This document shows positions 29,129-40,632 of a stretch of DNA of 43,447 nucleotides, piece after piece. The DNA is from Desulfobaccales bacterium (GTDB taxonomy: Bacteria > Desulfobacterota > Desulfobaccia > Desulfobaccales > 0-14-0-80-60-11), in NCBI GenBank assembly GCA_037481655.1, contig JBBFLF010000021.1, positions 1 through 43,447 of the forward strand. The letters run 5' to 3'. The notes under the pieces were generated by a model that saw nothing but the letters and a program-made list of their open reading frames with translations, ran no database searches and was not told where the DNA came from. The position numbers and the translations under genes were made by a program. How positions within the stretch are numbered: the stretch's first letter is position 1; every line of letters starts with the position of its first letter.

Positions 29129-29782
29129 TTATGGTTCGAGGGAGGTGAGGCCTTCCCGGATGGCGTACTTGGTGAGCTCGGCGATGCTGTGGATTCCCAG
29201 CTTGTGCATGATCTGCTGGCGGTGGGTCTCCACCGTCTTGACGCTGATGTGCAATTGTTCGGCGATCTGGCCGGTGGGCTTGCCCTCGGCCATGAGCTGC
29301 AGCACCTCCCGTTCCCGGGGGGTGAGCATGGTGAAGGCGGAGGAACGGGGCGCGGACAGCCCCTGGACATAGTCCTGGATGACGATGTTGGAGACTCCGG
29401 GGCTCAGGTAGGTCTTGTTGGCCATCACCAGGCGGATGGCGGCGGCCAGCTCCTCAAAGGCGCAGTCCTTGAGGAGATACCCCGAGGAGCCGGCCTTGAG
29501 CATATTGACCACAAAACGGCGGTCGGCATGCATGGAAAGGGCGATGATCTTGGTCTCGGGAAAGGCGGCCAGGACCTGCCGGGTGGCTTCAATGCCGTTG
29601 AGGTCCGGCATGTTGACGTCCATGATGACCACGTCGGGCCTGAGTTCCTTGACGAGCTGCACCACTTCCCGCCCGTTTTCGGCCTCGGCCACCACCTCCA
29701 TATCCGGTTCCTTGGCCAGAAGGGTGGCCAGACCCTGACGGACGATCATGTGGTCATCAGCGATGATGATCCTCGTCTTCAT
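29129..29782 (-). CDS. NarL/FixJ-family response regulator
   Basis: A 217-residue two-domain transcription factor. The receiver domain has the acidic pair Asp9/Asp10, the phosphoacceptor Asp55 in VIMDVNMPDLNG, and the conserved Lys in LLKDCAFEEL. The C-terminal LuxR-type helix-turn-helix is LTPREREVLQLMAEG followed by IAEQLHISVKTVETHR. ATG 29782 has GGAGG upstream. The gene overlaps the 3' end of the kinase gene by 26 bases, so the pair is co-expressed. Its targets are unknown; the divergent neighbour (endonuclease-helicase) is one possibility from position alone. Confidence 0.9.
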   Translation of the reverse strand: MKTRIIIADDHMIVRQGLATLLAKEPDMEVVAEAENGREVVQLVKELRPDVVIMDVNMPDLNGIEATRQVLAAFPETKIIALSMHADRRFVVNMLKAGSSGYLLKDCAFEELAAAIRLVMANKTYLSPGVSNIVIQDYVQGLSAPRSSAFTMLTPREREVLQLMAEGKPTGQIAEQLHISVKTVETHRQQIMHKLGIHSIAELTKYAIREGLTSLEP

Positions 29783-31550
29783 GGTTTCCCTCCGTGGAAT
29801 TCCACCCTTCGGGGAGGGGCGCCCGGATGCGGACCGTGGTCCCTTCCTGCGGCTGGGAGTTGAGGTCGAGGTGCGCCCCCATGTGTTCGAGGCGCTCTCG
29901 GATGCTGAAGAGCCCGAAGCCTGCCATTGTGCCGCTTTTGCTGAGAACGTCTGCCACATCGAAGCCGATTCCATCGTCTTTTATGTCAATGCACAGTTTA
30001 TCTGCCTGTTTGTCAAGGAAAATTTCCACCTGTCGGGCCCGGGAGTGCTTCACCGCATTGGTGAGGAGCTCCTGAATAATACGGAAGAGGAGCACCCGAT
30101 GGGCCTCCGGCAGCGGGGGGAGGGGGGCGCCCCGCGTGACTCTCACCTGAATGTGATGGCGCCGCTCGAACTGCTCCGCCAGCCATTCCACCGCCTCCTC
30201 CCAGTCACCCTCAAAGAGGAGGGGCGGACTCAGTTTGGAGGTCAGCGCCCGGCTGGCGGCAATGGCCTCCTCCAGATAGCTGAGGGCCTCCCGCACCTCC
30301 TGGTCCCGGCCCTCCCAGGCCAGGGCCTCCTTGAGGGCAAAGAGCTTCATCTTGGCCAGGGCCAGGGGCTGACTCACCTGATCATGCAGATCCACCGCCA
30401 GGCTGCGGCGCTCCCGCTCCTCGGTGAGGGAGAGCTCCGCCGCCAGGGAGCGCAGCCGCTCCTGGTAGGACTCCAGCATGGCCTGGGATTCCTTCTGGGG
30501 GGTGATGTCCTCCACCATGCCCACCAACAGGAGAGGGCCGTCCGGGTTGGGGCGGACGGCGGCGGTGTGCACCCGGGCCCACAGGATGGACCCGTCCTGG
30601 CGGATAAAGCGGGCCTCCCGGACATAGCCCTGGCGACGGCCCTCCCGGAGTTCCTGAAACAGGCGCCGACGCTCCGCCACGTCCTCCGGATGCAGCAGGT
30701 CTTCGGTGGCATACCGGCACAGGACGTCACGGGGGTAGCCCAGCATCTGGATCAGCGCCTTATTGACCTCTAGGCCCTTGCCGTCCATCTGCATGAGGCC
30801 GATGCCGATGGGGGCGTTCTCAAAGATGGTCCGGAAGCGGGCCTCGCTCTGCCGCAAGGCCGCCTCCGCCTGGCGGCGGGCGGTGATATCCCGGGCGATG
30901 ACCAGGACTGCCGGACGCCCGTGATAGTACAGGCGCACCGCGGCGGTCTCCACGTCCACCACGCTGCCGTCCAGGCGCAGGAGCTGGAGCTCCTGCCGGG
31001 GCGCTTCGCCATCCCCCTCCAGCACCTGCCGGATGCGCGCCGCGGCCAGCTCCCGGGAGGCCGGCGCCACCACCTCCAGCACCTCCCGGCCCTCCAGCAT
31101 CTCCGGGCTTTCCGCGCCCAACAGGCGGGCGGCGGCGGGATTGAGGAAGACAAAGCGGCCGTCCTGATGCAGGGCGATGGCGTCCGGGGAGAGCTCCACC
31201 AGGCGGCGGTAGCGCTCCTCACAATCCCGGAGGCGCTCCTCCGCCCGGGAACTGGCCGCCTGGAGCCTGAGCCTCTCCTGCCGCAAATGCAGACATTCCT
31301 GGAAGGTGGCATGGTGGCGGTGGAGAAAGTGCATGGACAGCCCCGCCCCCAGAAAAGCCGCGGTCAGCACCGTCACGGCATCGATGCCCAGGAAGGTGAA
31401 GTGAGGACAGAGGAGGTGGTTGAGGAGTTCCGCCAGAGAGAGCGTCGCCAAAAGACCCAGGGCCCACAAGAGTGGTTGCAGCCGAATTCCGGGGGAGATC
31501 GGGGCCGGCCAGTCTCCCCGTGGTCCCCCATCTTCCCAGCGTGTGGCCAT
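29757..31550 (-). CDS. PAS-domain sensor histidine kinase (NarX/DegS class)
   Basis: A 597-residue membrane sensor. Two hydrophobic segments near the N-terminus (about 24-46 and 54-74) are separated by a very short loop, so there is no large periplasmic sensor domain. A short coiled coil (about 80-115) leads into two PAS domains (about 115-235 and 240-370). The HisKA_3 phosphoacceptor is His389 in LAVDLHDQVSQPL. The HATPase domain has ELLTNAVKHS, DDGIGFD and GFGLFSIRERLEHMGA. Sensing is probably intracellular, via the PAS domains. The C-terminus (EGNHEDEDHHR) is encoded in the overlap with the regulator gene. GGAGGT precedes ATG 31550 by 10 bases. Confidence 0.88.
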   Translation of the reverse strand: MATRWEDGGPRGDWPAPISPGIRLQPLLWALGLLATLSLAELLNHLLCPHFTFLGIDAVTVLTAAFLGAGLSMHFLHRHHATFQECLHLRQERLRLQAASSRAEERLRDCEERYRRLVELSPDAIALHQDGRFVFLNPAAARLLGAESPEMLEGREVLEVVAPASRELAAARIRQVLEGDGEAPRQELQLLRLDGSVVDVETAAVRLYYHGRPAVLVIARDITARRQAEAALRQSEARFRTIFENAPIGIGLMQMDGKGLEVNKALIQMLGYPRDVLCRYATEDLLHPEDVAERRRLFQELREGRRQGYVREARFIRQDGSILWARVHTAAVRPNPDGPLLLVGMVEDITPQKESQAMLESYQERLRSLAAELSLTEERERRSLAVDLHDQVSQPLALAKMKLFALKEALAWEGRDQEVREALSYLEEAIAASRALTSKLSPPLLFEGDWEEAVEWLAEQFERRHHIQVRVTRGAPLPPLPEAHRVLLFRIIQELLTNAVKHSRARQVEIFLDKQADKLCIDIKDDGIGFDVADVLSKSGTMAGFGLFSIRERLEHMGAHLDLNSQPQEGTTVRIRAPLPEGWNSTEGNHEDEDHHR

Positions 31551-31914: not shown

Positions 31915-34794
31915 ATGGAGATTGTGGCCGACCTGCACCTCCATTCCCGTTATTCCGTGGCCACCGGCCGCCAGGCGGACCTGCCCCACCTGGACCTCTG
32001 GGGTCGCTACAAAGGGGTGCAGGTGGTGGGCACCGGGGACTGCACCCACCCCCAATGGCTGGCGGAGCTGGCGGCCCAGCTTCAGGAAGTGGCGCCGGGA
32101 ACCTACGAGCTCCGCCCCGAGGCCGCCTTGCCCATGGAGCTCTCCGGCCCCCAGTGGGAGGCCGTGCCGTCGGTGCGTTTCCTCATCACCGGCGAAATCA
32201 GCGCCATCTATAAAAAGGGGGGGCGGGTGCGCAAAGTCCACCTCCTCCTGGTGCTCTCGGGGCTGGAGGCGGCCCAGCGCCTGTCGCAACGTCTGGCCCG
32301 CATCGGCAATGTGGCGGCGGACGGCCGGCCCATCCTGGGGCTGGATGCCGCCGCCCTCACGGAGCTCACCCTCGAGCAGGACCCCGAAGCCCTGGTCATT
32401 CCCGCCCATATCTGGACCCCCTGGTTTTCGGTCCTGGGGGCCAAAAGCGGCTTTGACTCTCTGGAAGAGTGCTTCGGGGAGACCCTCAGGCATATTCACG
32501 CCCTGGAGACGGGCCTGTCCTCGGACCCGGCCATGAACTGGCGGGTGAGTGCCCTGGACCGCTTTGTCCTGGTGTCCAATTCCGATGCCCATTCCCCGGA
32601 GAAGCTGGGCCGGGAGGCCAATCTGCTCGCCGTCCCCCCCACCTTTGCGGCCATCAGCCAGGCCCTCCGCACCGGAGAGGGCTTTGTCGGCACCCTGGAG
32701 TTTTTCCCCGAGGAAGGCAAATATCACCTGGACGGCCACCGCAAGTGCGGGCGGCGACTGACACCCCGGGAATCCCAGGCCTCTGGCGGGCGTTGCCCCC
32801 AGTGCGGGCAGCCCCTGACCTTAGGGGTGCTCCACCGGGTCCTGGAGCTGGCCGACCGGGAGGAGGGCGCCCAGCCGCCCTTCGCCCGCCCCTTCACCTC
32901 TCTTATCGGCCTCCCGGAAGTTTTGGCTGAGGTCCTGGAAACGGGTCCCGGCAGCAAAAAGGTGAGGCAGGCCTACTTTCAGCTCCTGGAGCGCCTGGGG
33001 CCGGAACTCCCCCTTCTCCGGCATCTGCCTCTTGACGACGCGGCCCGAGAGGGCGGCCCCCTGCTGGCGGAGGCCCTGGCCCGGATGCGGCGGGGGGAGG
33101 TGCAGATCAGTGCCGGCTATGACGGGCTCTTCGGGGAGGTGCAGCTCTTTACCCCGGAAGAGCGGCGCCGCCTCCGGGGCCAGGGAGCCTTCTGGTCGGT
33201 GACGCCGGCCTCACCCCCGCCCGCGGCGGCACCTGGAGCTGTCAGCTTTGCCGAGGCCACCGTGGCACCCCTGACCATGGTGGCGGAGCCTGCCGCGGCC
33301 CCGGAACGCCTCAATCCCGCCCAGCAGCGGGCCGTGACCCGGGAGAGCGGCGCGGTGGTGGTCCAGGCCGGGCCGGGAACCGGCAAGACCCGGGCCTTGA
33401 GCCATCGGGTGGCCCACCTCCTGGCCTCCGGAGTGCCGCCCCAGCAGATCCTGGCCATCACCTTCACCCGGCAGGCGGCGGAGGAGATGGCCCGCCGGGT
33501 GGCCCAGCTTCTCCCCGGCCACCCCGGGGTGGCGGAGCTCACCATCTCCACCTTCCACGCCCTGGGCCTGCGGCTGCTCAGTGAGGCGGGTCAGGGGCGG
33601 CAGGTGGCGGACGAGGCCACGCGGCGGCAGATCATGCAGGAGGTGGCCCGGCGACACGGCCTGAAGCCCGCCGTCCTGGAGCGGCACCTCTGCCAGGCCA
33701 AGAACCGGCTCGCCTCCCCGGATGGCGACGGCCAGGGGGTGCCCCCCGAGCTTGGGCCCGCCTGCAGGGATTACGAGGCGGCCCTGGCCTGGGCCGGGTT
33801 GTACGATTACGAAGACCTGGTGGCCCGGCCGGTGCGCCTGCTGGAGGACAATCCCCACCTGCGGGCGGCCTGGCAGGGGCGCTGGCGCCATTTTCTGGTG
33901 GATGAGTTTCAGGACCTCAACCTGGCCCAGTATCATTTTCTGCGGGCTCTGGCCGGAGAAACGCCGGCGTCCCTCTTGGCCATCGGCGACCCCAACCAGG
34001 CCATCTATGGCTTCCGGGGCGCCAGTCCGGAGTTTTTCCGGCGCCTGCCCCGGACCTGGCCGGAAGCCCTGGTCATGCACTTTCCCGAGACTTACCGGCT
34101 GTCGCCGCCCCTGCTGGCCGCCTCCCGGCGGGTCCTGCCGCCGGCGGCGCAGACTGGAGCCCCGGAGATCAGCCGGCGGCCGGGGGAGGCCCCGCCTCTG
34201 CTCCTGGAGGCCGCCACCCCTGAAGGGGAGGCCAAAGCCATCGCCGGCGCCATCGAGGCCCTGGTGGGGGGCTTCCGCCATCAGTCTTTGCCTCAGGACA
34301 ACCTCGGCAATGCGGGCGACGTGGGTTTTGGGGACATCGCGGTGCTCTACCGCCTCCATGCCCAGGGCGAGCTGTTGGCGGAGGAGCTCAACCGGGCGGG
34401 CATCCCCTGCCAACTGGTCCGTGAGGGCATAGGCCCCGACTGGGAGGACCTGGACCTGGCGGCGGCCCGGGTGAAGCTCCTCTCTCTCCATGCCGCCAAG
34501 GGTTTGGAATTTGATTATGTCTTCCTGGCCGGCTGCGAGGATGGACTTTTGCCCCTGAAACTGGCCCGGGAGGAGCCACCGGAGCCGGAAGAGGAACGCC
34601 GCCTGTTCTATGTGGGGCTCACCCGGGCCCGGGAGCAGGTCATCCTCACCCGGGCCCGGCGGCGCCGGCTGGCGGGTAATCAGGGCCCCACCCGCCTTAG
34701 CCCCTGGGTGGCGGCGGTGGCGCCGGAGAAGTGGCGGCCGACGGCCCCCGCCCGTCCCCGGGTCCGGCAGCGCTGCCTCTTCCCGGACACCTGA
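31915..34794 (+). CDS. EndoQ-like PHP endonuclease fused to a UvrD-family helicase
   Basis: A 959-residue fusion. The N-terminal part (about 1-420) resembles endonuclease Q (TIGR00375-type), which nicks DNA 5' of deaminated bases. It has DLHLHSRYS with Asp6, His8 and His10, GTGDCTH (Asp42, His45), AHIWTPWFS (His165), SNSDAHS (Asp224, His226) and a zinc finger (Cys278, Cys294, Cys297). After a Pro/Ala-rich linker comes a superfamily 1A helicase: Walker A AGPGTGKT (Lys491), DEFQD (663-667), GDPNQAIYGFRGA (from 691), motif IV Arg813, LHAAKGLEF (from 858) and LFYVGLTRARE. Only about 46 residues separate motif IV from motif V, so the 2B subdomain is essentially missing. Expected role: repair of deaminated DNA, with nicking and unwinding in one protein. 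Confidence 0.85.
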   Translation: MEIVADLHLHSRYSVATGRQADLPHLDLWGRYKGVQVVGTGDCTHPQWLAELAAQLQEVAPGTYELRPEAALPMELSGPQWEAVPSVRFLITGEISAIYKKGGRVRKVHLLLVLSGLEAAQRLSQRLARIGNVAADGRPILGLDAAALTELTLEQDPEALVIPAHIWTPWFSVLGAKSGFDSLEECFGETLRHIHALETGLSSDPAMNWRVSALDRFVLVSNSDAHSPEKLGREANLLAVPPTFAAISQALRTGEGFVGTLEFFPEEGKYHLDGHRKCGRRLTPRESQASGGRCPQCGQPLTLGVLHRVLELADREEGAQPPFARPFTSLIGLPEVLAEVLETGPGSKKVRQAYFQLLERLGPELPLLRHLPLDDAAREGGPLLAEALARMRRGEVQISAGYDGLFGEVQLFTPEERRRLRGQGAFWSVTPASPPPAAAPGAVSFAEATVAPLTMVAEPAAAPERLNPAQQRAVTRESGAVVVQAGPGTGKTRALSHRVAHLLASGVPPQQILAITFTRQAAEEMARRVAQLLPGHPGVAELTISTFHALGLRLLSEAGQGRQVADEATRRQIMQEVARRHGLKPAVLERHLCQAKNRLASPDGDGQGVPPELGPACRDYEAALAWAGLYDYEDLVARPVRLLEDNPHLRAAWQGRWRHFLVDEFQDLNLAQYHFLRALAGETPASLLAIGDPNQAIYGFRGASPEFFRRLPRTWPEALVMHFPETYRLSPPLLAASRRVLPPAAQTGAPEISRRPGEAPPLLLEAATPEGEAKAIAGAIEALVGGFRHQSLPQDNLGNAGDVGFGDIAVLYRLHAQGELLAEELNRAGIPCQLVREGIGPDWEDLDLAAARVKLLSLHAAKGLEFDYVFLAGCEDGLLPLKLAREEPPEPEEERRLFYVGLTRAREQVILTRARRRRLAGNQGPTRLSPWVAAVAPEKWRPTAPARPRVRQRCLFPDT

Positions 34795-34902
34795 GTCTTT
34801 AGCCACCCCTGATGGGGGGTGCAGGGGAAAACTCCATGCAAGAAAGCCACGTCTAGCGTTTTCCCTATGGCCAGGCTCTATTGGTGCAGAAATTCTCCTG
34901 AG

Positions 34903-34931
34903 GGGCATTGACCATGTGGGTCGCCCTTTTT
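34903..34931 (+). terminator. intrinsic terminator after the endonuclease-helicase
   Basis: GGGC-ATT-GACC pairs with GGTC-GCCC (34903-34913 with 34919-34926, a 3-base bulge on the 5' side), followed by TTTTT. A CACCCC-TGAT-GGGG hairpin near 34805 lies closer to the stop but has no T-run. tamA therefore probably has its own promoter, which I could not identify in 34932-35002. Confidence 0.65.
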
Positions 34932-35002
34932 CTCAGAGCAAGCCGTCAGCGGCGCGCCGGCGGCCATCGAAGGGCAGGCCTCCACGGGGCGGGGTGGGCA
35001 GA

Positions 35003-36871
35003 ATGAGGGGAGATGGGCCGGGAAAATCTCCCTTTGCCCCCGCATGGCTGCTGGCGCTGTGGGTGTGGCTGGGGGTCTGGGCCGGGCTCTCCCCGGAGGG
35101 GATGGCGGCGCCGCAGGCCGCTGCGCCCCCTCTCACCCTGGTGGCGCTGGAGATCCGGGGGGCCAAAATCATCCCGGCCGCCCAGGTGAAGGAGCAGTTG
35201 TCCCTGGAGCTTCCCTCCCGCTGGCCGTGGAGGAAACCGCCGGCGTTTCGGCCCGAAGATCTGGAAAATGACCTGGAGCGGCTGAAAATCTTTTATCGCC
35301 GCCAGGGTTTTTATCACACCAGCATCACCTCGCAGCTTAAGGTGGACGAAAAAGGCCGGGTGCGGGTCATCCTCCAGGTGGAGGAGGGGCCTTTCATCCG
35401 GGTGAACCAGATCAAGGTGGAGGTCCGGGACCCGGGGGCGGACCTGGATTACGCCCAGTTGGCCCGGGAACACCCCTTAAAGCCGGGGCAGCGGTTCACC
35501 GAACGGGGCTACGATGAGCTCCGGGCGCAATATGTCACGGCCCTCCAGGACCATGGGCACCCCCGAGGGCAGGTCCAGGGCCGGGTGTATCTCGATGAGC
35601 TGGAGAACCGGGCCGACATCCACCTCACCGTGGAGCCAGGGCCCCGCTGCGTCTTCGGGGAGGTGCGGCTGATCAAGGACGCCACGGTTCCCGATTATCT
35701 CATCCTCCGGAAACTCACCTTCCGGTCCGGGGAGGTCTTTTCCTTCCGGAAGCTGTATGACAGTCAGCGCCAGCTTTACGAGACCGATCTCTTCAAAAGT
35801 GTCAGTCTGACCCCCGCCGAGGTGCCGGAGAGCGAGACGGTCATCCCGGTGGTGGTGGAGGTGCACCGGGGCAAGCGGGGCACCGTCAAGGTGGGGGTGG
35901 GTTATGGCGAAGTGGATCTCTTCCGGGCCCGGCTGGCTCTCCGGTTGCGGAACCTGGGGGGCGGCGGCCGCCTGCTGGACCTGGAGGGGAAATACTCCAT
36001 CCGGGAGAGCCGGGTCACGGGGACCTTCACCAACCCCCAGTTTCTGGCCAGCCGCTGGGATGCGGTGGTGCAGGGGGGCTGGGTGGAATGGGACCTCCCC
36101 GGTTTCCGGGACCGAGCCTTCTTCACCCAGGCCCGTCTGGAGCGGGATCTCCCCTGGCGCCTGCGCTTTTATGTGGGGCATGGCCTGGAGTTTGCCCGCC
36201 CTTTTGGCATTCCCAACGAGACGCTCTTCATCCTGCGGGAGGCCCGGCCGGATAAGCTCTTCACCGCTTCCATGCTCCTCTTCGGCCTGAAGCGGGACAC
36301 CACCGACCGGAGTCTGGACCCGGAGAGCGGCCACATCCTCAGCCTGACCCAGGAGCTGGCCCTGGATTTTCTGGGGGGCAACCTGCAGTTCAGCCGCACC
36401 GTGGCCGAAGCCCGGGGATACCGGAATCTGGGGCGCCCCGGGCTGGTGCTGGCCGGCCGCCTGAAATTCGGGGTCATAGAGCCCATCCAGGGGACCGGGG
36501 AGATCCCCCTGTTCCGGCGTTTCTTCGCGGGCGGCGCCGGGAGCGTGAGGGGCTATCGCTTCAATTACCTGGGCCCCAGAAACGAAGCCGGCACCCCCGT
36601 CGGCGGCGAGGCCATCCTGGAGGGCAATGCGGAGCTGAGGGTGCCGCTCTATAAGGAATTCCAGGGGGTGGTCTTTTTTGACTTCGGCAATGTCTATTTC
36701 CGCACCCAGGAGGTGGACCCGGGGCACCTGAAGTATGCCGCCGGCTGCGGCCTGCGCTACCGCACTCCCATCGGGCCCGTGGGGGTGGATCTGGGGTTTC
36801 CGTTGAATCGCCAGGATCCCCGGCAGGATCCGGCTTTTCGCCTGATTTTCAGCATCGGGCAACAGTTTTAA
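35003..36871 (+). CDS. tamA: Omp85-family outer membrane protein, TamA-like
   Basis: A 622-residue outer-membrane barrel protein that would help insert or translocate envelope material together with TamB. The N-terminal signal is hydrophobic (WLLALWVWLGVWAGL, cleavage likely near AAP around 37-38). Several POTRA domains follow (about 50-330), recognisable by VALEIRGAKIIP, VEEGPFIRVNQIKV and VEPGPRCVFGEVRL. The Omp85 barrel contains the lid motif FFAGGAGSVRGYRF, and the protein ends in Phe (IFSIGQQF), the usual sorting signal. ATG 35003 has only a weak G-rich ribosome site, and GTG 34994 is an alternative. tamB begins 74 bases downstream. Confidence 0.8.
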   Translation: MRGDGPGKSPFAPAWLLALWVWLGVWAGLSPEGMAAPQAAAPPLTLVALEIRGAKIIPAAQVKEQLSLELPSRWPWRKPPAFRPEDLENDLERLKIFYRRQGFYHTSITSQLKVDEKGRVRVILQVEEGPFIRVNQIKVEVRDPGADLDYAQLAREHPLKPGQRFTERGYDELRAQYVTALQDHGHPRGQVQGRVYLDELENRADIHLTVEPGPRCVFGEVRLIKDATVPDYLILRKLTFRSGEVFSFRKLYDSQRQLYETDLFKSVSLTPAEVPESETVIPVVVEVHRGKRGTVKVGVGYGEVDLFRARLALRLRNLGGGGRLLDLEGKYSIRESRVTGTFTNPQFLASRWDAVVQGGWVEWDLPGFRDRAFFTQARLERDLPWRLRFYVGHGLEFARPFGIPNETLFILREARPDKLFTASMLLFGLKRDTTDRSLDPESGHILSLTQELALDFLGGNLQFSRTVAEARGYRNLGRPGLVLAGRLKFGVIEPIQGTGEIPLFRRFFAGGAGSVRGYRFNYLGPRNEAGTPVGGEAILEGNAELRVPLYKEFQGVVFFDFGNVYFRTQEVDPGHLKYAAGCGLRYRTPIGPVGVDLGFPLNRQDPRQDPAFRLIFSIGQQF

Positions 36872-36945
36872 GAAGTTCGGGGTGCAACAGGGGGATAGCC
36901 AGGATTGTTTCTCATAGGGCAAAGGCAGTGTGAGGGGAAAAGGCC

Positions 36946-39900
36946 ATGCGGTGGCTGAAGATGGCGGCCCTGGGTGTGGGGCTGCTGACGGTGCTGGTGG
37001 CCGCGGGTCTGGGACTGGCCCTGCGAAGTGAAGCCATCTGGACCTGGGGTGGGCAGCGGCTAGTGGCCTTAGCCCAGGAGCGGCTGTATCCCAGCCTGAG
37101 CGTGGCCGAGGTTAAGGGGCATCCCCTCACCGGCCTCACCTTCACCGGCATCCGCCTCACCGCTCCGGAAGGGGAGGTCCTCCGGGCCGAGCGGCTGGAA
37201 CTCACATTTTCCCTCTGGTCCTTTGTGCGGCTGCGGCCCATCCTCTCCCGGGTGGCGGTGTATCAGCCCCAGGTGCAACTCTGGTGGGCGCCGGACGGCC
37301 AGGTGAACCTCAGCCGGGTCCTCAAACCCCGGCCGCCGCCGCCTTTCCGTTCCCTGGATTTTCCGGAGGTTGTGGTATCCGGGGGGGAGGTGACCGTCCG
37401 CCGGGACGGGCGGCTTCAGCGGTACGGCCCCGTGGACCTGGAGGCTGCGGTCAGCATTCTCCACCCCAAGCAGCCCCAGCAGAAGGTCCTGGTGCGGCGG
37501 GTCAGTCTTGCCTGGACGGGCCCGCCGGGACGCCTGAAGCTGTCTGGCCGCCTCACCCTGCGGCCCGAGGAGCTCCAGCTTCTGGAGCTGGCCCTAAGAT
37601 TGGACGAGACCCTCCTTCTGAAGGGAAGCGGGCAGGGGTGGAGTGGCGAGGCCCCCGGGGTCCGGCTGGCGATGGAGATGGGGCCGCTGGCCGGGGAGAC
37701 CCTGGCGCGCTTTTGGCCGCAGTGGCCGGCGGCGTGGCCGTTGGCGGGCAGGGTCCAGGTGGAAGGAGGGCTGTCGGGCGGCAGCTTCACCGCGGAGCTC
37801 ACCCTGGCCGGCTCCCCTCTGGCCCTGCAAGGCCGGCTGCTGCGGGAGCCGGGCACCTGGGCCTATGCCCTGGACCTGGCGGCGCCGGCGCTGCCGGTGG
37901 AGTGGCTTGGCCCCTGGCGGCCGGAGTGGGTGGCAAGAGCATCCGACCTGCCGCCCCTCAACCTGCGCCTGGTGGGGAAAGGGGCGGGCTTCACCTGGCC
38001 TCCGGAGAGACTGGATTGGGAGCTCACCCTGGGAGCCGTGGCGTGGCGGGGGGTGAAGGTGGAGGCCGCCCGGGGGACCCTGACGGGGAACAGCCGGGAA
38101 CAGGCCCTGACCATGAGCGGCCGGGGCAGCTTCGGCCGCCTGGCCGCCACCCTCAAGGGCCCTCTCCTGACTGCCTGGCGGGGGGATGTGGACCTGGAGG
38201 CGCAGGATTTGCTGCCGGGGCTCCTGGGTCTGGCGACGCCCCCGGATACCCGGATGAGCGGCCGCTTTCGGGGCACATTTCACCTACCCGAGATGGATGC
38301 ACGACGCCTCACCCTGGCCGGGGACCTGAGGGGCAGCGGCCGCTGGGGGAACTTACCGGTGCAGGAACTCAAGGCCCGGTTGGCCTGGGCCGCCCCGCGG
38401 CTGGAGGTCCGGGAGGCGGCGCTCACGGCCGCGGGCCTGACGGCCACCGGCCAGGGCCGCGTCAGCCCCCAGGAGCTGGAGGCCAAGGTGCAGGGGAGAC
38501 TGCGCGGCCCGGTTTCCTGGCTTCCGGGGCCGCGCTTCTCCCAGGCCGCCTTTGACCTGGCGCTCAGCGGCTCCGTCTCTCAGCCCCGGGCGGTGCTCAC
38601 TGCCCAGGTTCAGGGGCTGACGGGGGGCGGGCTGGCGGCCCGCAGCCTCAACGTGGCCGGCACCCTGAGCGGATGGCCGCCCGCCGCCGGTCAGCTCACC
38701 CTGACGGCCACCGGCCTCACCACGCCCGTGGCCCCCTTCCCCCGGGCCCAGATGCTCCTTAGGGGGGAGAATCACCGCTGGCACCTGGAGGGGACAGCCT
38801 CCGGGGAAGGGAAAAACCGGGTGGAGCTGGCCGGGCTGCTGGAGACGGGGGGCCGCCCCGTGCTCTTCACTCTGAGCCGCTTCGCCTTCAGCCTGGGACA
38901 GCTGACCGGCCGGGCCCAGGACCCGGTCCGGCTGGCGGTCCTGCCCGGCGTGCGCCTGGAGCCGGCCGTCTTTCTCCTCAACGGCGGCCGCCTGGAGGCC
39001 GAAGGACGCTTCACGGAGGGGGCCGTGACGGCCCGGGTGGACGCCCGGGATCTGCCTGCCGGCCTGGTGGGGTTCAAAGGGGTGCCCCTGAAGGGCAAGA
39101 TCCAGCTTAAGGCGGGCCTTGGCGGCACCCCGGCCCGGCCCACCCTCACTGCGGTGGCCTCCCTCAGTGAGGGGGGCTGGGGGAAGCTGGAGGTAAAGCA
39201 GGCCAGGGCCTCCCTCTCCTATGGTGACGGCACCCTCAGCCTGTCCGGGACGCTGGAAGAGGCCCGCCGGGGCTCCCGCCTGAGCCTCGAGGGCCGTCTG
39301 CCGTGGCGCCTGTCCCTGACGCCCTGGGCTGTGGGCCGGGGTGAGGGGGACCTCAGGGTAACCCTCAGCGGGGAGAAATTCAATCTGGCGGTGCTCCCGG
39401 CCTTGACCCGGGAAGTCACCGAAGCCGATCTGCCCCTGGAGTTTCAGGCCCTCTGGGAGGGTCCCGCCGCCCGCCCCCGGGTGCGGGGCAACGTGCGCTG
39501 GGCGGAGGGCTACGTCAATTTCCGCCTCGGGGGCGCCCGCTATCAGGTGAGCCCGGGCAGCGCCCAGCTGGAGGGGAGCACCCTCACGGTGCCGGAGCTG
39601 CTCCTCACCAGCGACGGCACGGCCCGCATCCGGGGCACCCTCGCCCTGGAGGGCTTCTGGCCCGGTCAGGTCAATCTGCGGGGAGAGCTCATCAATTTCA
39701 AGGCCCTCTCCCGGTTGGGGTCCGAAGCCCGGGGGGAGGGCAGCCTCACTGTCACCGGCCCGTTTGAGGCCCTCCTGGTGGCAGGCCGGCTTACTGTCAC
39801 TCAGGCGGTCTTCCGGCCGCTCTTCTTTGAGACGGGGATCTCCGAGGACATCGTGCTGGTGCGCCAGCCCAAAGTGCCGGAAAACGGCCGTCCCCAGGCC

Positions 39901-40632
39901 CCGGCCTTCATCCGCAACGCCCGCATGGACATCACCCTGGATGCCCCCAAAAACATCTGGGTGCGGGACAAGCGGGCCAATCTGGAGCTGGGGGGGCGCC
40001 TGCTGGCCTTCAAGGAGCCGGAGGGCCCGGTGAGGGTGCGGGGCGAAATGCGGGTGCTCACCGGCACCGTGGAGGTGCACGGCAAGCCCTTCGTCGTCAA
40101 GGAGGGCATCATCCATTTACCGGGCCGGCCTCCGGAGCTCATCACCGTGAAAGGCAGGGCGGAGCATCAGATGGAGGAGGTGCTCCTCATCCTGGAGATG
40201 ACCGGGCCCTTGGCCAAACCGGAGATCCGCCTGGCCAGCCTGCCGCCCCTGCCGCCGGCGGACCTCCTCTCGTATATGGCCTTCGGGCAGCGGGCCGCCA
40301 CCCTGACCCGGGAGCAGTACAGCTCCGTAGGGGCCCAGGCCGTGGGGCTCATCGGCGGGCTGACCACCAAAAAACTCCTGGATTTTCTGGGCAAGGATTT
40401 CCCCCTGCTGGGGGACCTCTATTTCACCGGCGGCCCCGAGCGGGTGGGGGTGGGGAAGCCCATCACCCGGGATCTCAGGCTCTCCTTTGAGCGGGTGACT
40501 GATCCCCTGACCCGGAGCGCGGCCGAGAATCAGGTGCGCCTGGAATACCGTCTCGGCCGGCGGGTCAGTGTGGAATCCCAGGTGGGGCGGCGCACCTCCG
40601 GAGTGGATGTGTTCTGGAATTTTGATTTTTAA
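36946..40632 (+). CDS. tamB: TamB-like translocation/lipid-transport protein
   Basis: A 1228-residue AsmA-like protein anchored by one N-terminal helix (about 5-26), with a very long periplasmic beta-rich groove made of repeated strands and a C-terminal TamB (DUF490) domain. The C-terminus (RLEYRLGRRVSVESQVGR ... VDVFWNFDF) is the conserved end that docks to the TamA POTRA domains. Such proteins bridge inner and outer membrane and are implicated in phospholipid transport and barrel assembly. Length is near that of E. coli TamB. The GAGGGG before the ATG is weak but no other start fits. Low Lys content and high Gly/Leu/Arg reflect base composition. Confidence 0.85.
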   Translation: MRWLKMAALGVGLLTVLVAAGLGLALRSEAIWTWGGQRLVALAQERLYPSLSVAEVKGHPLTGLTFTGIRLTAPEGEVLRAERLELTFSLWSFVRLRPILSRVAVYQPQVQLWWAPDGQVNLSRVLKPRPPPPFRSLDFPEVVVSGGEVTVRRDGRLQRYGPVDLEAAVSILHPKQPQQKVLVRRVSLAWTGPPGRLKLSGRLTLRPEELQLLELALRLDETLLLKGSGQGWSGEAPGVRLAMEMGPLAGETLARFWPQWPAAWPLAGRVQVEGGLSGGSFTAELTLAGSPLALQGRLLREPGTWAYALDLAAPALPVEWLGPWRPEWVARASDLPPLNLRLVGKGAGFTWPPERLDWELTLGAVAWRGVKVEAARGTLTGNSREQALTMSGRGSFGRLAATLKGPLLTAWRGDVDLEAQDLLPGLLGLATPPDTRMSGRFRGTFHLPEMDARRLTLAGDLRGSGRWGNLPVQELKARLAWAAPRLEVREAALTAAGLTATGQGRVSPQELEAKVQGRLRGPVSWLPGPRFSQAAFDLALSGSVSQPRAVLTAQVQGLTGGGLAARSLNVAGTLSGWPPAAGQLTLTATGLTTPVAPFPRAQMLLRGENHRWHLEGTASGEGKNRVELAGLLETGGRPVLFTLSRFAFSLGQLTGRAQDPVRLAVLPGVRLEPAVFLLNGGRLEAEGRFTEGAVTARVDARDLPAGLVGFKGVPLKGKIQLKAGLGGTPARPTLTAVASLSEGGWGKLEVKQARASLSYGDGTLSLSGTLEEARRGSRLSLEGRLPWRLSLTPWAVGRGEGDLRVTLSGEKFNLAVLPALTREVTEADLPLEFQALWEGPAARPRVRGNVRWAEGYVNFRLGGARYQVSPGSAQLEGSTLTVPELLLTSDGTARIRGTLALEGFWPGQVNLRGELINFKALSRLGSEARGEGSLTVTGPFEALLVAGRLTVTQAVFRPLFFETGISEDIVLVRQPKVPENGRPQAPAFIRNARMDITLDAPKNIWVRDKRANLELGGRLLAFKEPEGPVRVRGEMRVLTGTVEVHGKPFVVKEGIIHLPGRPPELITVKGRAEHQMEEVLLILEMTGPLAKPEIRLASLPPLPPADLLSYMAFGQRAATLTREQYSSVGAQAVGLIGGLTTKKLLDFLGKDFPLLGDLYFTGGPERVGVGKPITRDLRLSFERVTDPLTRSAAENQVRLEYRLGRRVSVESQVGRRTSGVDVFWNFDF

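Follow-up and report, generated by a model that had tools for sequence, protein, structure and literature searches.

When endonuclease Q (EndoQ) cuts, it leaves a 3′-OH, and the strand downstream of the nick begins with the lesion at its 5′ terminus (PMC4357722, PMC8438529); in PfuEndoQ, E76, H84 and H139 are required for cutting, and G169 and S171 keep out normal bases (PMC8307549). A review confines EndoQ to the Euryarchaea and a few bacteria, calls the repair of its nicks still elusive, and already places a helicase, FEN1, a polymerase and a ligase after the nick (PMC8438529). Archaeal EndoQ binds PCNA via a C-terminal PIP box, and a β-clamp motif has already been noted in stand-alone bacterial EndoQ (PMC4858679). 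In the SF1A helicases UvrD, PcrA and Rep, subdomain 2B autoinhibits the Rep and UvrD monomers and makes the dimer interface, and its removal switches on the Rep monomer (PMC13238157). PcrA^s (MPN340) of Mycoplasma pneumoniae is naturally 2B-less, and is a highly active helicase that forms no stable protein–DNA complexes (PMC3720892). The Gabija system GajAB combines a nuclease with a UvrD-like helicase that has an accessory subdomain unlike 2B (PMC10681800).

Here we describe a gene in a 43,447-nucleotide stretch of a Desulfobaccales genome (contig JBBFLF010000021.1; the whole stretch is hereafter the window), in which EndoQ and a UvrD-type helicase are joined in one frame; no description of a PHP/EndoQ–UvrD fusion was found in the open-access literature. 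The encoded protein shares with Endonuclease Q (PfuEndoQ, 5zb8/7k30; the stand-alone enzyme of Bacillus pumilus) the fold, the PHP metals and the Gly/Ser of the base pocket, but differs in carrying an in-frame helicase. With UvrD, PcrA and Rep it has in common subdomains 1A, 1B and 2A and all motifs, whereas it is missing their 2B, the subdomain that carries the GIG motif and the dimer interface. It resembles PcrA^s in being an SF1A helicase wholly without 2B; however, PcrA^s is a stand-alone, species-specific extra gene with no nuclease fused, whereas the 2B-less state of the window protein is conserved clade-wide. Gabija, in contrast, comprises two proteins with a nuclease of another family and a defence role, and GajB unwinding has not been detected.

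Anatomy of the gene and its EndoQ half

The initial annotation had proposed an EndoQ-like protein followed by a helicase in one frame, and this was borne out by the unbroken 959-aa frame (Table 1) and by phmmer, TIGR00375 and Pfam matches. Residues 3–416 matched PfuEndoQ (5zb8) with a phmmer E-value of 5e-47 (3e-48 in a second phmmer alignment of the EndoQ half), and the TIGR00375 profile matched the EndoQ half with 137.7 bits (E 6.5e-40), which is below the curated NCBIfam cut-off of 326.6 bits, although the relationship is clear. The EndoQ fold was confirmed by the AlphaFold model, which aligned with 5zb8 over 387 residues at 2.4 Å (Z 48.3, VIA-align; Foldseek agrees). For the whole fusion, the AlphaFold2 model had a pLDDT of 87 and a pTM of 0.66, and with this pTM and a disordered linker the mutual placement of the EndoQ and helicase halves is uncertain.

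Table 1. Features of the fusion gene in the window (all on the + strand)
Feature	Position	Strand	Basis
Complete EndoQ–UvrD fusion gene, 959 aa	31915..34794	+	single open frame, ATG at 31915, stop codon ending at 34794; orthologues share the start Met
EndoQ half, residues 1–420 (PHP catalytic domain, zinc ribbon, C-terminal helical domain)	31915..33174	+	phmmer, VIA-align, TIGR00375
Zinc ribbon H275-x2-C278 ... C294-x2-C297	32737..32805	+	aligned rows
Disordered linker, residues 425–462	33187..33300	+	model pLDDT <50
UvrD/Rep-type SF1A helicase half, residues 464–935 (1A, 1B, 2A)	33304..34719	+	PF00580, PF13361, structural alignment
Motif I (Walker A) GPGTGKT, residues 486–492	33370..33390	+	90-row alignment
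Motif II DEFQD, residues 663–667	33901..33915	+	90-row alignment
Motif IV Arg728 (ETYRLS)	34096..34098	+	invariant in 90/90 rows
Motif IVa Arg813	34351..34353	+	90-row alignment
15-residue loop in place of subdomain 2B, residues about 837–851	34423..34467	+	PcrA alignment, spacing, model
Motif V LSLHAAKGLEF, residues 856–866	34480..34512	+	90-row alignment
Motif VI EERRLFYVGLTRA, residues 893–905	34591..34629	+	90-row alignment
Putative sliding-clamp-binding motif QRCLF, residues 952–956, disordered C-terminal tail	34768..34782	+	QLxLF-type statistics in fusions

All PHP metal residues and the zinc finger had been claimed to be present, and indeed nine metal residues (D6, H8, H10, D42, E94, H109, H165, D224 and H226) and the four zinc-ribbon positions were found, none of them misassigned. 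By pairwise alignment, E76/H84/H139/G169/S171 of PfuEndoQ correspond to E94/H109/H165/G200/S202 of the window protein. Among 90 aligned rows, E94, H109 and H165 were kept in every covering row, bar one T at 109, and G200 and S202 of the base pocket as well as the zinc-ribbon cysteines C278, C294 and C297 were unchanged in 90/90. H275 was invariant among 17 diverse EndoQs; the ribbon is of the H-C-C-C type, whereas PfuEndoQ aligns a Cys at the first position. With these residues in place, the window protein probably cleaves 5′ of dU, dI and AP sites.

The helicase half and its missing subdomain 2B

In the helicase half, PF00580 (UvrD-helicase) matched residues 466–712 and PF13361 (UvrD_C) residues 848–914, and residues 465–923 aligned with PcrA, UvrD and Rep. 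The 90-row alignment displayed motifs I, Ia, II, III, IV, IVa, V and VI, so that the helicase motifs are intact as annotated, and the key residues checked from motifs I to V were invariant in 90/90 rows. Arg813 had been assigned to motif IV; in the current motif list this position is motif IVa (PMC13238157), and motif IV is represented by Arg728. Residues 780–800 (34252–34314), which lie between motif IV and motif IVa, form a conserved insert with the family consensus GGxSxxSxDSGR, degenerate in the window protein (GGFRHQSLPQD). From its family, the polarity of the helicase is presumably 3′→5′.

The alignment with PcrA fell into two blocks (residues 465–836 with PcrA 11–382, and 852–923 with PcrA 558–629), between which 175 PcrA residues (383–557) have only 15 counterparts in the window protein. 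Exactly 45 residues separate Arg813 from His859 of motif V, so the short spacing that the initial annotation had put at about 46 residues holds and only its count is corrected; the same interval comprises 147–213 residues in the ordinary stand-alone UvrD/PcrA paralogs of the same and related genomes, and 113–132 residues in three special stand-alone helicases (L202, L204 and L210, see below). The model aligned with Rep (1uaa) over 450 of 633 residues at 2.2 Å (Z 40.1, VIA-align; Foldseek agrees), and the helicase half scored Z of about 40 against Deinococcus radiodurans UvrD as well as Rep, with a range of Z 38–40 across UvrD, PcrA and Rep. The folded domains of the model are EndoQ, 1A, 1B and 2A, and only a loop, at about residues 838–852 of the model, stands at the 2B site; a 2B displaced to another position was therefore ruled out, there being no unassigned folded domain. 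By comparison, the model of L062, a fusion with a reduced 2B, showed a small four-helix bundle at this site, and against DNA-bound UvrD chains L062 aligned 539–540 of 645–646 residues versus 454–458 for the window protein. An identical 45-residue spacing recurred throughout the sequences measured, which came from four families (without exception in the own-order members measured, and in two further families), and this excludes an assembly error, a frameshift or another artefact behind the short 2B. Thus, by sequence, model and structural alignment, the four subdomains of SF1A are reduced to three in the window protein, and the absence of 2B, as had been claimed, is real.

Within the aligned set, the IVa–V spacing was bimodal, i.e. 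40–49 residues (no 2B) or 103–208 residues (2B present, mostly reduced). The reduced inserts comprise 73–178 residues and are kept by most fusions, indicating that 2B loss is unnecessary for the fusion to work; the description of an EndoQ fused to a helicase missing 2B, true for the window, is therefore not that of most fusions. A GIG-like motif was found in 12 of 69 inserts, one of the 12 being an ordinary paralog. In two Gastranaerophilales-type fusions (L119 and L131), 1B was also short (about 72 aa versus about 114 elsewhere), so that both accessory subdomains are reduced.

The 2B-less fusions come from the family and order to which the window belongs, from the Desulfarculaceae-type family f16, from family f79, from one further genome (G030, L037) and from one Myxococcota genome (L081); all but the last formed one clade in a tree of both halves (SH-aLRT 94). 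In this tree the starred branches force three separate 2B changes, while the helicase-only tree forces at least two, with the 2B-less forms nested among 2B-bearing ones and 2B-bearing UvrD paralogs outside, a topology which argues that 2B loss is derived. Complete 2B loss thus appears to have arisen at least two to three times, with one loss basal to the clade that includes the window, the trees being quick ones without bootstrap that do not fix the exact number.

Distribution, split forms and the putative clamp tag

A survey of phyletic distribution recovered the fusion across many bacterial phyla. Among the 59 genomes closest to the window's, full-length fusions were encoded by most members of the own family and order, and they extended to several further families of the same phylum. 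Across 84,980 species genomes scanned, at least 588 EndoQ relatives were encoded, and most of the best 80 of these were one-frame fusions of about 976–1287 aa, from Clostridia, Alphaproteobacteria, Planctomycetota, Spirochaetota, Binatota, Gemmatimonadota, Myxococcota, KSB1, Fibrobacterota, Verrucomicrobiota and Actinomycetota (Saccharothrix, Frankia, Micromonospora). With open-frame length as the proxy for ‘fused’ in the phylum surveys, except for sequences actually read, EndoQ was found in 196 of 296 genomes of the own phylum, where 81 of the 150 best matches sit in frames of at least 850 aa, and the fused share of the strong matches was 17/24 for Bacillota, 6/12 for Pseudomonadota and 2/3 for Actinomycetota. 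The fusion is therefore a widespread bacterial architecture and not a one-off. A search of viral contigs yielded no relative and one of plasmids no match to the EndoQ half, on which grounds a mobile or viral gene was rejected.

The gene is dispensable, since one same-order genome is without it and a genus of the window's family (g3; three genomes, L029, L030 and L031) has kept EndoQ but, at this locus, no longer has the helicase half, a natural helicase deletion. Downstream of its EndoQ gene, L030 has the Omp85 gene that also follows the fusion in the window (a neighbour recognised by reading). Both UDG and EndoV are encoded in the window's genome, so the fusion is no stand-in for either; deaminated bases have other handlers and the fusion would be one of several routes.

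Split forms were also found. In L109, EndoQ and helicase genes are adjacent and overlapping, each with a terminal QLxLF motif, and three genomes (G036, G051 and G056) encode EndoQ alone and elsewhere a stand-alone helicase (L202, L204 and L210), with a tail of QLTLF or the looser ECLF/QGSLF. These three and the fusion helicases formed one clade (SH-aLRT 99), apart from the PcrA/UvrD paralogs. In the other lone-EndoQ genomes, no helicase of the fusion clade was present among the matches listed. Such split forms follow the pattern expected of functional partners.

Comparing the neighbours by BLAST among 80 loci (large components, which were antisense ORFs overlapping the gene, being ignored), we found no clearly recurrent neighbour outside the own order except dnaN, and partly gyrB, in some Desulfobacterales; a functional operon with neighbours was rejected, as partners do not clearly recur beyond these. 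In three Desulfobacterales (L073, L089 and L108) the fusion lies near dnaN with two small genes between; these two conserved genes and dnaN are divergent from the fusion, about 0.5–5.0 kb upstream, and one of the small genes is weakly RdgC-like (17.8 bits, below the cut-off). In the window, an Omp85/TamA-like and then a TamB-like gene lie downstream (34802–40632), both of which recur in L052 and L053, and a PAS-PAS histidine kinase and a LuxR-type response regulator lie upstream and divergent (29129–31550, − strand).

The established clamp-binding consensus is QL[S/D]LF, of which positions 1, 4 and 5 matter most (PMC3919608). Nearly all fusions terminate in a sequence of the QLxLF kind. Within the last 25 residues, 85% of 59 named fusions carried a strict Q[LMI]x[LM][FL] and 88% a loose pattern, versus 0.4% (maximum 5%) and 4%, respectively, in shuffled tails, and a QLxLF-type motif was present in none of 20 ordinary UvrD paralogs. 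QRCLF of the window protein fits the consensus at positions 1, 4 and 5 and departs from it at position 2. Elsewhere in the window's order the tail reads QPQLF or QRSLF, the order as a whole matching the loose pattern in 89% and the strict one in 0%, and in at least one member, L007, the tail motif is without Gln; with no strict match, the putative motif is weaker in this order. A C-terminal sliding-clamp tag is a feature of Endonuclease Q too (a PIP box in archaea), and what is new is that in the fusions the predicted tag, with the helicase fused in frame, sits at the helicase end. By its tail the fusion may bind DnaN.

A proposed nick-and-unwind reaction and its alternatives

We favour, with a probability of roughly 0.6, a clamp-tethered nick-and-unwind enzyme that serves an alternative excision repair and whose helicase is freed from 2B autoinhibition. 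The EndoQ half would locate a uracil, hypoxanthine or abasic site and cut the phosphodiester bond 5′ of the lesion, giving a 3′-OH and a downstream strand with the lesion at its 5′ terminus. The UvrD-like half would then load at the nick on the intact strand and travel 3′→5′, assuming SF1A polarity; by this geometry, moving away downstream it would peel off the lesion-bearing strand as a flap tipped by the lesion. A polymerase would extend the 3′-OH, and the flap would be removed and the strand sealed. Through its C-terminal QxxLF tag the enzyme would stay attached to the sliding clamp, as archaeal EndoQ does to PCNA by way of its PIP box, and in the window's clade, where 2B was lost, targeting would be supplied by the EndoQ half and the clamp. 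The domains, residues, 2B loss, tail motif, distribution and split forms are observed, whereas lesion cutting by this protein, its coupling to unwinding, the clamp binding and the constitutive activity are what we infer.

By analogy with the 2B-less helicases described, a permanently active helicase in the window protein is plausible, and it should unwind as a monomer with no activator needed. The fused EndoQ and the clamp tag could compensate for unstable DNA binding of the PcrA^s type. That the nuclease half governs helicase loading, as first suggested, is only part of the answer, since the putative C-terminal clamp motif likely provides a second tether.

It is unlikely, in our estimate, that the helicase half is a translocase clearing SSB, RecA, RNA polymerase or EndoQ from damage rather than an unwinding motor, although UvrD, PcrA and Rep all have the general ability to strip proteins from DNA and the separation-pin aromatics of UvrD are apparently not kept after motif VI (AGNQGPTRLSPW). 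Rep without 2B and PcrA^s do unwind DNA (PMC13238157, PMC3720892), and the 2B of Rep is reported to couple translocation to protein displacement (PMC6158625), so that 2B loss speaks against stripping.

Even less probable is an anti-phage role, in which phage DNA with uracil or inosine would be attacked and the helicase would aid its degradation. Bacillus EndoQ has been proposed for antiviral defence (PMC8307549), and Gabija pairs GajB, a UvrD-like helicase to which the window helicase half shows the expected similarity, with a nuclease partner. However, viral contigs hold no relatives and plasmids no EndoQ half, the gene is present across most of its own family and many others, no defence-like neighbour recurs at the 80 loci, where dnaN and gyrB (in some Desulfobacterales) are the DNA-related genes that recur, and the clamp motif suits repair better than defence. 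Beside the fusion there is no GajA or other defence gene, the neighbours being a histidine kinase and an Omp85 protein. A defence system was rejected as well by PADLOC, for which the matches listed covered the helicase half only and neither of the two neighbours tested.

That the two activities share a chain for co-expression only, cutting and unwinding different substrates uncoupled, would accord with the long disordered linker and with the genus g3, which dropped the helicase and retained EndoQ, but is similarly improbable, given that the fusion persists across many phyla, that split forms keep both partners and that a nick of the kind EndoQ makes is geometrically well suited to a 3′→5′ helicase.

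Extended from the window protein to the family, the clamp-tethered nick-and-unwind reading would make EndoQ–UvrD, fused or split, a widespread undescribed system for deaminated bases, in which several lineages deleted 2B as targeting replaced its control; to this wider claim we give slightly less than even odds. If true, EndoQ–UvrD would answer what follows the EndoQ nick in bacteria. The fusion names the likely next step, i.e. strand displacement at the nick and at the clamp, and as a single protein offers a direct test of it. Moreover, the repeated natural loss of 2B allows the idea of a regulatory and not catalytic 2B (PMC13238157) to be tested by evolution, and where a targeting domain is fused, 2B may be dispensable.
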